64,000 nucleotides of DNA from Brevibacillus laterosporus LMG 15441 (lineage in GTDB: Bacteria; Bacillota; Bacilli; Brevibacillales; Brevibacillaceae): contig NZ_CP007806.1 of NCBI RefSeq assembly GCF_000219535.2, positions 3,568,501 to 3,632,500 on the forward strand, given 5' to 3'. Under the pieces are notes generated by a model that was not told the origin of the DNA, searched no databases, and was given only the letters and a program-made list of their open reading frames with translations. The position numbers and the translations under genes were made by a program. Positions 43,477-49,618 of this stretch are shown here, piece by piece (position 1 is the stretch's first letter; the number at the start of each line of letters is the position of its first letter).

Positions 43477-43758
43477 TTAGTCGTAGTATTCCGTATCCGC
43501 ACGAATTAACTCTACGTCGGAAAATGTTTCTACAAACCGCACGATGGTGGTAATTTCCTTTTGCAAAAAGGAGTATTCATTGGCAACGGCAGCTACCTCA
43601 AGTAAGGTACGCTGCCATTGCTCGTGAAAATCTATTTCAGCAATTGATACATTGTACTTATTTCGAATTTGACTCATGACGCTTTTAATAATCGAACGTT
43701 TTTCCTTAAGAGAACTCGTATAGGGCATAAACAATTCTAACTGCGTCACGGCTACCAT
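43477..43758 (-). CDS. ylxP: YlxP (DUF503) protein
   Basis: The 93-residue protein is recognised by family style ([27 protein letters not shown] and the C-terminal RADTEYYD) and by its place between infB and rbfA. Family function is unknown; some members have been tied to ribosome assembly. It overlaps the infB stop by one base (TAATG). Confidence 0.93.
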
Positions 43759-46172
43759 TAGGCTTTAACTTCAACCATAATGAAGGCTTCGATAATGTCG
43801 CCCTCTTTAATATCCGTAAAACGTTCTAGAGTAACACCGCACTCGTAGTTCGTCGCCACTTCTTTCACATCGTCCTTGAAACGTTTTAGCGTATCTAATT
43901 TACCTTCGTAAATAACTACGCCATCACGAATCAATCGCGCACCTGCGTCACGGCTCAGTTTACCTTCCGTAACATAGCAACCTGCAATTGTACCCACTTT
44001 AGATACTTTGAAGATCTGACGCGCTTCCGCTTGACCAATGATCTCCTCTTTATATACAGGATCAAGCATCCCTTTCAATGCGGATTCAATCTCTTCAATT
44101 ACAGTGTAGATAACGCGGTGTAGGCGGATATCAATTTGCTCCTGCTCAGCCATACTGCGAGCATTCGGTTCAGGACGTACGTTGAAACCAATGATAATTG
44201 CGTTAGAAGCATTTGCTAAAGTAACATCAGACTCTGTAATCGCACCAGCGCCTGTGTGAATAACCTTCACGCGAGTACCATTCACTTCAATTTTCTCTAA
44301 AGAACCTCGAAGAGCTTCTACAGAACCTTGAACGTCTGCTTTAATAATTAGGTTTAATTCTTTAATATCGCCTTCTTGGATTTGAGTAAACAAGTCATCC
44401 AAGGAAACACGCGCACTTGCACGGCGCTCAGAATCACGCTGTTTAACTGCACGAGATTCACCGATGGAACGAGCTTTCTTTTCATCCTCGAATACCATGA
44501 ATTGATCCCCAGCCTGAGGTACATCATTTAAACCGGTGATTTCAACTGGCATGGACGGTGGTGCTTCTTTCATGCGGCGACCTTTGTCGTTCACCATAGC
44601 ACGAATGCGACCGAAAGCAGAGCCTACAACGATTGGATCACCGACACGGAGCGTACCATGCTGAACCAATACAGTTGCAACAGGACCGCGACCTTTGTCC
44701 AACTCAGCTTCAACAACCGTACCGCGAGCACGTTTATCAGGATTAGCCTTTAATTCTTGTACTTCAGAAACCAATAGAATGTATTCTAAAAGTTCTTCAA
44801 TACCTGTACGCTGTTTTGCGGATAGCGGGCAGAAAATCGTATCGCCGCCCCACTCTTCCGATACTAATTCGAATTGCATTAATTCTTGTTTTACACGATC
44901 TAGATCAGCAGCTGGTTTATCAATCTTGTTGACAGCAACGATAATCGGAACATTTGCCGCTTTCGCATGGCTGATTGCTTCGATTGTTTGTGGTTTCACA
45001 CCATCATCAGCAGCTACAACAAGAATAGTGATATCCGTAACTTGAGCACCACGAGCACGCATTGTAGTAAACGCCGCGTGACCAGGTGTATCCAGGAAGG
45101 TAATTTTCTTGCCTTTAATTTCAACTTGGTAAGCACCGATATGCTGTGTAATACCACCAGCTTCTCCTGCAACAACATTTGTAGAGCGAATCGCATCTAG
45201 CAACGTTGTTTTACCGTGGTCAACGTGACCCATGATGGTAACAACTGGAGGACGTTCACTTAGATCTTCTTCTGCATCCACTTCAGCGATTGTTTCGAAG
45301 TTTGTTTCATCAATGACGATTTTTTCTTCTACTTCTACACCGTAATCAGCACAAATTAATTCGATGGTATCTCGATCTAGATCCTGATTGATCGTAGCCA
45401 TGATACCTAAAGCGAATAGTTTTTTAATAATTTCTGCTGGCTCTCTTCTTAGCTTTTTACCCAATTCGTTTGCAGTAAGTGACTCTGTAAACGTAATTTT
45501 GCTAGGCAATTCTAACACAGGCCGTTGTACAGGGGCTCCACCTTGACGTCCATTTGAACGTTTTTGGTTTTTATTAAACTGCGGTCCTTTTCTGTTATCT
45601 TCAAAGGTTTTTTTAGTTTGTGGAGCCTTCTTAATTTTTTCGCGTTTTTCCATTCCAACTTTTGCTGGAATTTTCGCTTTGTCTGCTAGCGTTTCTTCCT
45701 TACGTTCTGCCTCAACATTGGTCGTTTGATCTTTTACTTCATTTTGCTTTGCATCTTGTTTTTTGTTTTGACTCATAGTATTTGCTCTTCGCTCCTGATT
45801 CTTCCCCTGATTTTGGTTTTGCGTTCCTCTACTCTTTGCTTGAGCTGAGGTGTTACCAGCAGCATATGCAATTTGCGGTTTTTGACCGTCTTGTTTGGGG
45901 GATTTTTCCGATTGGGATGTGGCTCGCGCCTCGCTGCTCGTTATGGTTTGTGGCTTATCTTGCTTTGGTTGTTGCACTTGTTTTGCTTGGGTGTTACCAC
46001 TGGAAGCATTCGCTCGTAAATTTGCTAAATGCTGTTCCAATTTTTGTACCGTTTCTTCGTCCATAATACTCATGTGATTGCTGACATCTATATTGATTCT
46101 CTTCAAGAGAGTAACAATTTCTTTACTGCTCATGTTATGTTTCTTTGCGTATTCATATACGCGTGTCTTCAT
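43758..46172 (-). CDS. infB: Translation initiation factor IF-2
   Basis: GTPase that recruits fMet-tRNA to the 30S subunit. The 804-residue protein has IF2_N (residues ~1-55, [17 protein letters not shown]), a Gln/Lys/Ala-rich low-complexity linker (~55-215), a second IF2_N-like region (~225-270), the G domain ([23 protein letters not shown]; ~305-475) and domains II-IV to residue 804. ATG 46172 follows AAGGGGTG. The linker is longer and more Gln-rich than in compact IF-2 forms. Confidence 0.97.
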
Positions 46173-46495: not shown

Positions 46496-46782
46496 TTCCC
46501 CATCATCTCCAGCCATTTCTCGCGGAAGTTCTCGTATTGTTCCTGTGAAATGCTGGTGTTTAGCGCACGCTCCAAAACTTTTTTCCATTTTCCAGCAGTG
46601 AAAGTATCTGGTGTGCGGCAACTCTCTTTTTGACAAACATAAGTGCCGCGTCCGGACGCCCTTCCGCTCGGATCAATCAAAATTTGTTCATCCGGCGTTC
46701 GAACGACGCGGAGCAATTCCTTCTTCGGGTACATTTCCTGACAAACGATGCATTTACGTAATGGAACTTTTTTTACTTTCAT
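46492..46782 (-). CDS. ylxR: YlxR (DUF448) RNA-binding protein
   Basis: The 96-residue protein begins KKVPLRKCIVCQ and has GRASGRGTYVCQ, the DUF448/YlxR signature around the two Cys positions. Homologues are small nucleic-acid-binding proteins linked to RNase P or nucleoid functions. It overlaps nusA by four bases at the start (ATGA) and ylxQ by four bases at the end, so the three form a coupled block. Confidence 0.94.
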   Translation of the reverse strand: MKVKKVPLRKCIVCQEMYPKKELLRVVRTPDEQILIDPSGRASGRGTYVCQKESCRTPDTFTAGKWKKVLERALNTSISQEQYENFREKWLEMMGK

Positions 46783-47873
46783 TCCATACCCACATCGCTA
46801 GCGTCTTCATCGGAAGGCTTAGGATAGGAAATCCCCTCTTGTTCAGCTTGACTTTCACTCTTAATGTCTATTTTCCATCCAGTAAGTTTGGCTGCCAGGC
46901 GTGCATTTTGTCCACGTTTTCCAATAGCTAGCGACAATTGATAATCAGGTACGATTACGCGCGTCATTTTCTCTTCTTCGTTCACTTCAACGTGAACTAC
47001 TTTAGACGGACTTAACGCGTTAGCTACGTACTCAGCCGGGTCCTCAGACCAGCGAACGATGTCAATTTTTTCGCCCTTTAGTTCGTTTACGATCGTTTGT
47101 ACGCGTAGACCTTTAGGACCTACACAGGCACCCACTGGATCGACCTCTTCATTTGTGGAGTGAACCGCAATTTTAGAACGATCTCCAGCTTCTCTCGCGA
47201 CTGATTTAATTTCAACGACACCGTCATAAATTTCAGGTACTTCCAATTCAAATAGACGTTTTAATAGTCCTGGGTGCGTACGGGAAATGACGATTTGGGG
47301 ACCCTTTGTCGTTTTCTCTACTTTAATAATATATGCTTTGATTCGGTCTTGTGGTTTAAAATCATCTGTTGGCATTTTTTCAGTGAGAGGCATTACCGCT
47401 TCCACTTTCCCCAAGTCAACAAAATAAGCGCGGGAATCTTGGCGTTGAACGATACCATTTACGATATCTTCTTCACGATCAATAAATTCATTATAAATAA
47501 GTCCGCGTTCTGCTTCACGAATGCGTTGCGTAACGACTTGCTTCGCCGTTTGAGCCGCAATGCGTCCAAAATCACGAGGCGTTACTTCAATTTCAACGAT
47601 GTCATCAATGCGGAAGTTAGGATCGATTTCATTAGCAGCCTCCAAAGAAATCTCCAAACGAGCATCTAACACATCTTCTACAACATTTTTACGTGCAAAC
47701 ACGCGAACTTGACCTGAATGGCGGTTTACATCAACACGAACGTTTTGTGCGGAGTTAAAGTTGCGCTTGTAACCAGAGATCAGCGCTGCTTCAATCGCCT
47801 CAATCAAAACCTCTTTGTCAATCCCCTTTTCCTTTTCCAGATCATGCAGTGCTGTAATAAACTCTGCATTCAT
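46779..47873 (-). CDS. nusA: Transcription termination/antitermination factor NusA
   Basis: RNA polymerase-associated factor promoting pausing and termination. The 364-residue product has the N-terminal RNAP-binding domain (~1-125), S1 (~130-200, GIVQRQDSRAYFVDLGKVEAVMP), KH1 and KH2 (VGACVGPKGLRVQTIV, SLAIGKRGQNARLAAKLTGWKIDI; ~230-345). It lacks the acidic C-terminal repeats of E. coli NusA, normal for Bacilli. It belongs to an operon with a hairpin-rich leader (see 48445-48509), where NusA feedback control is plausible. Confidence 0.97.
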   Translation of the reverse strand: MNAEFITALHDLEKEKGIDKEVLIEAIEAALISGYKRNFNSAQNVRVDVNRHSGQVRVFARKNVVEDVLDARLEISLEAANEIDPNFRIDDIVEIEVTPRDFGRIAAQTAKQVVTQRIREAERGLIYNEFIDREEDIVNGIVQRQDSRAYFVDLGKVEAVMPLTEKMPTDDFKPQDRIKAYIIKVEKTTKGPQIVISRTHPGLLKRLFELEVPEIYDGVVEIKSVAREAGDRSKIAVHSTNEEVDPVGACVGPKGLRVQTIVNELKGEKIDIVRWSEDPAEYVANALSPSKVVHVEVNEEEKMTRVIVPDYQLSLAIGKRGQNARLAAKLTGWKIDIKSESQAEQEGISYPKPSDEDASDVGME

Positions 47874-47895: not shown

Positions 47896-48354
47896 TTAAA
47901 AGACGATAGCCAATCGGGCTTCGCTTATTTGATCCATTTTAATTGTATATTTGTTTTTTTGTTCAGAAATCGTTAACGTATCACCGTCAAACGCTTCTAG
48001 TGTACCTTCAAACAACGTGTGACCGTCCACCGCTTCTTTGGTGGTGATATGTACGTGTTTGCCTACAGCCTTGTGATAATCTTTTTCTTTACGTAAGGGA
48101 CGCTCCGCTCCAGGCGAAGAAACCTCTAAGAAATATGCGGTTGGAATCGGGTCCAATTCGTCCAGCTTTGCACCTAGTTTTTCACTAACGGTACCGCAAT
48201 CTTCAATATCGATGTTGGACGAATCATTATCGATAAAGATACGCAAAAACCAGTTGCTACCTTCCTTCTTGTATTCGATATCCACCAGTTCCAATCCTGT
48301 TTCTTCAAGGATAGGAGTCAGTAGTTCCTCAACAATTTGCACTACCTTGCTCAA
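47896..48354 (-). CDS. rimP: Ribosome maturation factor RimP
   Basis: Supports 30S assembly by binding S12-region RNA. The 152-residue product has [23 protein letters not shown] and [17 protein letters not shown], both RimP signatures. The start is TTG 48354, eight bases after AAAGGAGG; the same base run precedes proS. Longer upstream frame (32 codons) is rejected because it runs into the leader hairpins. First gene of the rimP-nusA-infB operon. Confidence 0.94.
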
Positions 48355-48444
48355 GCAAGTTCCTCCTTTAAGCAGATCCATACTGTTATAAATGTGTAAC
48401 CGGCTACCAAAGTGGCACCGGGTGGTCACAAATCTAATTCTTTG

Positions 48445-48479
48445 CCACAAGAAGCTTTCTAGCTAGAAATCCTCTGTGG
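48445..48479 (-). promoter_or_regulatory. Leader hairpin containing a 14-bp perfect palindrome
   Basis: CCACA...TGTGG closes a stem around the palindrome TTTCTAGCTAGAAA (48456-48469). It is in the transcribed leader of rimP. It may be an anti-terminator or processing structure; its partner hairpin at 48490 lies 10 bases away. Confidence 0.5.
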
Positions 48480-48489
48480 TCAAGAAGAA

Positions 48490-48509
48490 AGAGTGGGTTT
48501 CCCCACTCT
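48490..48509 (-). terminator. Leader terminator-like hairpin upstream of rimP (possible attenuator)
   Basis: Minus-strand AGAGTGGG-GAAA-CCCACTCT forms an 8-bp perfect stem with a GNRA tetraloop, followed by TTTCTTCTT, an interrupted U-tract. A promoter (48540-48569) lies upstream, so the hairpin is transcribed about 25 bases after the start, before rimP. Alternatively it could end the transporter gene transcript. Confidence 0.65.
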
Positions 48510-48539
48510 CGTACGTGTATAACCAGTATTTCCAAAAAA

Positions 48540-48569
48540 ATTATAGCATAATACCATGGCTCTTGACAA
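48540..48569 (-). promoter_or_regulatory. Sigma-A promoter of the rimP-nusA-infB operon
   Basis: Minus-strand TTGTCA (48564-48569), 18-base spacer, perfect TATAAT (48540-48545) with extended -10 TGC. It gives a leader of about 180 bases that contains the hairpins described above. Confidence 0.65.
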
Positions 48570-48646: not shown

Positions 48647-49618
48647 TCAATCTGATACATGAAAAGGGGGTGTTTCCTTTTCTTTCCGACCCGATACTAG
48701 GCTATGTAAAATCATTCCCAGCATGATAAGCAGGAGCCCCGTTGAAGCCACTGGTGTAGGCAAGCTGGCAGATAACCACACGACCTCTCCTGCTGTAGCA
48801 AATAAGACTTCCATCGATTGTGTTGCTTCTACAGCCGCTAGGCGACGCATGTTGCCTTTCACCATTTCCGTAGCTCGGAAAAATAACACCGTTGCACAAA
48901 TTCCTGAGAAAATCGCAACGAGAGAGGTTTGGAATACCTGACTCTGACTTGGCGCCCCATCTACAACCAAAGCTGTTATCGATAACAGCATCCAAAACGG
49001 CATACTGCAAATTGTCATACCAAGTACACGCTGATAGGTATCGACTCGCTCTCCACAAATTTGCATCATTTTACGATTCCCTAACGGATAAGCAAAGGAC
49101 GCTACTACAACTGGCAAAAATCCTAACAGCACTTCTTTAGGTTGTAGTACACTCGCTTGTTCGCTCTGCATGAACACAATTCCAAGTAAAATGATGCTTG
49201 ACATCCATAACCCCGGAAGCGAGATTTTCCCTCGCACTAATTGTACGCCCTGTGAGCCTGTTTTCTGCTCAAAAAAGAAAGGAGCCAGCAAAGAGCCAGA
49301 GATGATTGTAATCTGCCATGTTCCCGCTATTAACCATCCTGGACCATACGATTGAGCAAAACAAAAAGGGGCGTAAAACAGGCCAAAACCAACCGTGCTC
49401 CATAATATCCATTCTTTTGGATGCTTTTTAATCTCTATCCATAGCATTCCCAGATTTCCTCGTAAAAACACAAGAAACAATAGTGGCGGTAGCATGAAAA
49501 AAAAGCGAAGTGCCGCACTCCACATCCAACTGCCTCCAGCAAGCTCCATGGAACGATTCAATACAAAGGTAAAGGCAAAAAAGAAGGAAGATATAATCCC
49601 AATCCAAATCGGCCGCAT
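48647..49618 (-). CDS. DMT/EamA-type efflux transporter (multidrug resistance efflux family)
   Basis: Membrane protein of 323 residues with about ten hydrophobic helices and paired 5-TM repeats, as in PF13536-like drug/metabolite exporters. It starts RPIWIGIISSFFFAFTFVLNRSMELAGGSWMW, a conserved N-terminal signature. The substrate cannot be read from sequence. ATG 49618 follows GAGGTGG. It sits between polC and rimP, which in B. subtilis are adjacent. Confidence 0.85.
   Translation of the reverse strand: MRPIWIGIISSFFFAFTFVLNRSMELAGGSWMWSAALRFFFMLPPLLFLVFLRGNLGMLWIEIKKHPKEWILWSTVGFGLFYAPFCFAQSYGPGWLIAGTWQITIISGSLLAPFFFEQKTGSQGVQLVRGKISLPGLWMSSIILLGIVFMQSEQASVLQPKEVLLGFLPVVVASFAYPLGNRKMMQICGERVDTYQRVLGMTICSMPFWMLLSITALVVDGAPSQSQVFQTSLVAIFSGICATVLFFRATEMVKGNMRRLAAVEATQSMEVLFATAGEVVWLSASLPTPVASTGLLLIMLGMILHSLVSGRKEKETPPFHVSD

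Follow-up and report, generated by a model that had tools for sequence, protein, structure and literature searches.

The rimP-nusA-infB leader of Brevibacillus laterosporus, a probable NusA-responsive attenuator with a conserved element at its predicted transcription start

What controls entry into the rimP-nusA-infB operon of Brevibacillus laterosporus LMG 15441, and which part of its leader carries that control? We examined this locus, which is encoded on the minus strand, within a window of 64,000 nucleotides (the whole stretch of DNA analysed, to which all positions refer). A first-pass annotation, made from the letters alone, had proposed a structured leader with a possible NusA-responsive attenuator; inspection of the sequence found its coordinates correct and the described features present where it had placed them.

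Operon, leader layout and promoter

Matches to NCBIfam models place rimP at 47896-48354 (TTG start codon at 48354; NF000928, 186.6 bits), nusA at 46779-47873 (TIGR01953, 438.5 bits) and infB at 43758-46172 (TIGR00487), in the gene order rimP-nusA-rnpM (ylxR)-ylxQ-infB-rbfA, and these matches agree with the assignment of the leader to this operon. Among named relatives, B. laterosporus stands closest, with 97% identity in RimP. The Shine-Dalgarno sequence of rimP, AAAGGAGG, was read at 48362-48369. From 48569 downwards, the minus strand carries TTGTCA, 18 nucleotides with a TG inside, TG-C-TATAAT, seven T residues and GGAAATACTGGTTATACACGTAC, followed by the hairpin GAGAGTGGG-GAAA-CCCACTCTT, the tail TCTTCTTGAC, two more hairpins, AAAGGAGG and the TTG codon of rimP. 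Folding of the minus-strand leader, a check that the annotation had proposed, gave -57.4 kcal/mol for the whole leader against -42.6 kcal/mol for dinucleotide shuffles (z -3.7), a value better than that of 200 of 200 shuffles. Upstream of the leader, between polC and the rimP promoter, lies a drug/metabolite-transporter-like open reading frame (48647-49618, minus strand) with no NCBIfam match; the end of polC stands directly 5' of the rimP promoter in many other Brevibacillus.

The sequence and its comparison across Bacilli identify a sigma-A-type promoter at 48540-48569 (minus strand), composed of the -35 element TTGTCA (48569-48564), an 18-nt spacer and an extended -10 element (TG at 48548-48547, TATAAT at 48545-48540), which together match the consensus at 11 of 12 positions in addition to the TG. 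The predicted transcription start is G48533, the eighth base past the -10 box, placed from that box rather than mapped. The extended -10 noted by the earlier reading recurs in nearly all relatives: a TG one base 5' of the hexamer accompanies all 24 Bacilli families with a placeable promoter, a count on which the small bonus awarded to TG by the promoter search bears.

The terminator hairpin and NusA feedback

The terminator hairpin, GAGAGUGGG-GAAA-CCCACUCUU (48489-48510, minus strand), begins at +24 and comprises nine pairs including a closing G.U, with an energy of -15.2 kcal/mol when folded alone. The interrupted tail UCUUCUUGAC follows directly 3' of it, and the interrupted U-tract, UUUCUUCUU, spans 48482-48490. 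With RimP as the guide, leaders of relatives were gathered from 59 genomes, from 77 named loci and from 25 Bacilli families represented by one genome each. The stem AGAGUGGG/CCCACUCU with a U-tract broken after two to four U occurs in nearly every Bacilli family sampled, and AGAGTGGG...CCC(A/G)CTCTT stands 5' of rimP in nearly all of the relatives' leaders, while a few swap in a different, still paired stem (GAGTGAGCG..CGCTCACTC in family f5, AGGAGTAGGG..CCCTACTCCT in family f17). The run of U that follows CCC(A/G)CTC, scored in one representative of each of 22 families, measures 3 nt in 14, 4 nt in five and 2 nt in three and is never longer, making the interruption a class-wide trait (22 of 22 scored). 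Across the class, a TATAAT box followed by a rimP-type hairpin was present in 193 of 398 genomes, almost always as a single occurrence. The comparison with related leaders that the annotation had recommended therefore bears out its GAAA-loop hairpin with an interrupted U-rich tail; the GNRA loop itself is common and not required, because only 61 of 104 leaders have one. No Rfam family matched in the window. For RF01770, the gammaproteobacterial rimP leader with the same gene context as here, no match was found in the window at the gathering score or at E values up to 10.

Naville and Gautheret described the rimP-leader attenuator family in 2010, with Firmicutes included (PMC2965389), and the hairpin at 48510-48489 is one of its members. 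Like that family, it lies in the 5' UTR of rimP-nusA-infB, has a G-rich (GGG) 5' arm, a C-rich (CCC) 3' arm and a U-stretch, with the same stem in relatives, and lacks an antiterminator, its stem pairing at every length folded. Two differences stand beside these likenesses: the distance from terminator to gene is about 135 nt here, close to the stated maximum of 130, and the paper describes no larger conserved element (a description, not a requirement for membership), whereas here an element conserved over 24 families, at the predicted transcription start, precedes the hairpin. In Streptococcus agalactiae, RNA-seq detected a short terminated transcript ending 31 nt past the operon start (PMC4448216); this promoter-proximal termination 5' of rimP-nusA-infB-rbfA, for which NusA feedback was proposed, resembles the present case, although termination is predicted at about 50 nt here. 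According to the account given in a 2025 review (PMC12288461), which cites Mondal 2016, NusA of B. subtilis autoregulates through NusA-stimulated termination in its own leader. The present case shares with it the operon, the class and an intrinsic terminator in the 5' leader, and its interrupted U-tract is like that of NusA-dependent terminators; hairpins 2 and 3 of the present leader, by contrast, occur in the B. laterosporus group alone, and the NusA response in Brevibacillus is putative. Distal U-tract interruptions mark NusA-dependent terminators (PMC8060035), and the interruption in this leader, kept in all 22 representatives, sustains the earlier suggestion that its broken U-tract is of the NusA-dependent type.

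The leader is thus a real instance of a known attenuator, and we consider it probable that it serves as a promoter-proximal transcription attenuator for rimP-nusA-infB under feedback from NusA, a reading that is well supported by homology because the stem and the broken U-tract recur in nearly every Bacilli family. RNA polymerase would start at about G48533 at the extended -10 promoter, and the hairpin would be complete after 45 nt. Termination near 48487-48480 would then be weak unless NusA is bound, since only three U precede the break in the U-tract, a dependence that we infer for Brevibacillus from the B. subtilis orthologue; as NusA is made from the same operon, it is proposed to lower its own transcription. 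Counting against this, the stem, at -15.2 kcal/mol, is no particularly weak one. The hairpin might instead be a constitutive weak terminator that sets basal read-through without feedback; we give this only a small chance, given that the orthologous B. subtilis leader is reported, in the same account, to give feedback, and that a near-invariant stem sequence is unusual in a plain terminator.

Downstream hairpins and the question of a competing fold

The earlier reading had also held a competing fold between two hairpins to be plausible. Partition-function folding of the growing transcript found no competing or antiterminator fold in the leader: the terminator stem is almost fully paired from 46 nt on and equally so at 60, 100, 150 and 239 nt, with a pairing probability of at least 0.81 once transcribed (inner pairs about 1.0, closing G.U 0.81-0.91). 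Such a fold was therefore rejected, and the NusA-responsive attenuator of the annotation survives by homology (published family, B. subtilis feedback, broken U-tract) and without this component. Because the stem has no competing partner, the sensor would be a protein acting on polymerase and hairpin rather than a switch between RNA folds.

Two hairpins follow the terminator and were seen as they had been described. Hairpin 2 (48438-48486, core 48479-48445, minus strand) is long and imperfect and contains the 14-bp palindrome TTTCTAGCTAGAAA at 48469-48456; hairpin 3 (48389-48436, minus strand) is closed by CCGG...GGUAGCCGG, with CCGG...GCCGG at about 48436-48389. Its outer stem has changed on both strands between B. 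laterosporus (UGUGACC/GGUUACA) and B. daliensis (L004; GAGAGAA/UUCUCUC) and is paired in each, a comparison of only two independent sequences. The earlier expectation that the stems are shared among relatives fails for these two, which do not extend beyond the B. laterosporus group: the segment occurs in three B. laterosporus-like genomes and as a diverged copy in B. daliensis, and in most Brevibacillus it is missing, the terminator standing 45-60 nt from the rimP start. Their absence from most Brevibacillus led us to reject a role as conserved sensor, and an origin as a mobile or repeated element was rejected as well, since the genome holds no second copy of the segment beyond short chance matches. 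We regard the segment as a clade-specific extension of the 5' UTR that would at most affect read-through mRNA, because both hairpins would be made only after polymerase has passed the decision point.

A long-range helix may nevertheless involve this region. The strand UAUAACAGUAU (48380-48390, minus strand) is complementary to AUACUGGUUAUA of the start element and is invariant in B. daliensis; the complementarity is modest (p 0.01-0.03 against shuffles) and amounts to one evolutionary observation, the predicted pair probability is only 0.11-0.36, and no helix between the start element and a similar strand was found in other long-leader Brevibacillus, so that the helix is weakly suggested. Classical attenuation, in which the terminator would have hairpins 2 and 3 or this helix as its rivals and these would respond to a ligand or ribosome, would accord with the unusually good folding of the leader and with the complementarity to UAUAACAGUAU, yet it is very improbable, as the terminator stem forms at every length, the competing strand is made about 95 nt past the decision and most Brevibacillus lack the downstream segment.

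Related leaders display further features of their own. Many Bacillaceae rimP leaders carry ACTCT 9-13 nt 5' of the AGAGT arm of the terminator (loci L067, L086 and L108; genomes G069, G113, G145, G165, G246, G301 and G317), a pair that is a candidate for a weak antiterminator hairpin, which is missing from the window. A second terminator-like hairpin, CCCTGC...GCAGGG-TTTT, lies between the rimP attenuator and the Shine-Dalgarno sequence in some Bacillus and Sutcliffiella (L082, L087, L091, L093). The leader of B. daliensis, about 290 nt long, has a terminator-like ACTTC...GAAGT-TTTTTTT just 5' of the Shine-Dalgarno sequence and an alternative pairing, AGCCGGAT/ATCCGGCT, with hairpin 3.

A conserved element at the predicted transcription start

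The only part of the leader for which we found no published description, in a search that lay outside Mondal 2016 and Irnov 2010, is the start element GGAAAUACUGGUUAUA (48518-48533, minus strand; predicted +1 to +16), which the first-pass annotation had missed while describing the other features correctly. It begins at the predicted +1, directly past the extended -10 box, and has the class consensus GGnAAUACU-n4-AUA in an alignment of 24 families. Its information content over 17 columns is 9.4 bits, compared with 5.05 (sd 0.22, maximum 5.48) in 60 shuffles of the same sequences, based on an ungapped alignment of one representative per family within a window 3-8 nt past the -10 box. Conservation peaks in the GG columns, followed by C, A, A and the A near +14. 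An exact match to GGNNATACT followed by the hairpin at 10-38 nt was found in 111 of the 398 genomes, which represent 62 of 145 genera and about 25 of 59 families; of these, at least two matches, the second in G083 and that in G042, probably lie away from rimP, against two of 398 genomes for a reversed control pattern. Together with the -10 box, TATAAT-n5-7-GGNAATACTNNNNATA gave 20 matches in 59 genomes, all 20 just 5' of rimP, and its control pattern gave none in those 59.

The element varies by lineage: it reads GGAAATACTGGTTATAC in Brevibacillus, GGTAATACTAAGTATAC in Aneurinibacillus, GGAAATACTAAG.. or GGAAATGCTATGTATA in Bacillaceae, and GGCTATACTTATTGTAGATAC or GGTAATAATGAGATAA, among others, elsewhere in Bacilli. 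In most families it lies about 5-7 nt from the -10 box, and between 7 and 20 nt separate it from the stem. In families f5, f9, f10, f16 and f24 it is absent or strongly altered while a hairpin is still there; the element is therefore not essential to attenuation. Genomes of family f7 such as L137-L150 have a start sequence that differs yet can be aligned, GTTAGGCTTCGTATA(C/G), which suggests a lineage variant. A function as structured RNA was rejected, as the pairing of the element (0.65) equals that of shuffles (0.64), neither more nor less. The string GGUAAUAC resembles the 530 loop of 16S rRNA; this likeness was dismissed, with a chance probability of the order of 0.1 in a 1.5-kb RNA and an A as third base in Brevibacillus.

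Kept in one copy per genome together with the operon, the element would have a product of the same operon as its reader. We tentatively propose that it is a nascent-RNA contact for such a protein, NusA being the first candidate because it is the known regulator and has RNA-binding domains near the RNA exit channel; RNA or ribosomes are bound by RimP, YlxQ, RnpM and RbfA as well. By the time polymerase arrives at the U-tract, the element would sit just 5' of the hairpin. That it is a specific recognition site for NusA, or for another protein of the operon, rendering this terminator more responsive than ordinary ones, is possible though somewhat doubtful. NusA assists most intrinsic terminators in B. 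subtilis, so that the cell's reading of the NusA level at one terminator matters.

Two other readings were weighed. The nearly fixed spacing to the -10 box makes a DNA-level signal conceivable, namely an initiation or escape sequence (GTP-initiating, hence under stringent control, with GG at the predicted +1) or a repressor site; we consider this unlikely, as a role in initiation would not by itself account for conservation as far as +9 and of the AUA near +14 to +16, a regulator is unlikely to keep just one site per genome throughout a class, and the site is not palindromic. The likeness of AATACT and its variants to a -10 box brought in a sigma-A-dependent promoter-proximal pause: the hexamer would hold sigma on polymerase and set how sigma release competes with NusA binding ahead of the terminator, sigma and NusA having overlapping sites on polymerase (PMC7876045), and many substitutions keep A2, T3 and T6 (AATACT, TATACT, AATAAT, TATGAT, AATGCT, AATCAT). 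Such a pause fits poorly and is quite improbable, since the spacing is 16 bp start to start where the -10-like box of the E. coli pause lies 11 bp from the -10 box (PMC7876045), the most conserved columns (G, G and C) are the non-promoter-like ones, and position 1 of the hexamer favours A over T.

The leader as a whole, with its nearly frozen stem sequence, was already known. The start element is a second frozen piece, found at one operon, and as a direct handle on the feedback it is the only lead here worth an experiment. Should the element prove to bind NusA, it would place a sequence-specific site for this protein outside the rRNA and phage antitermination leaders.
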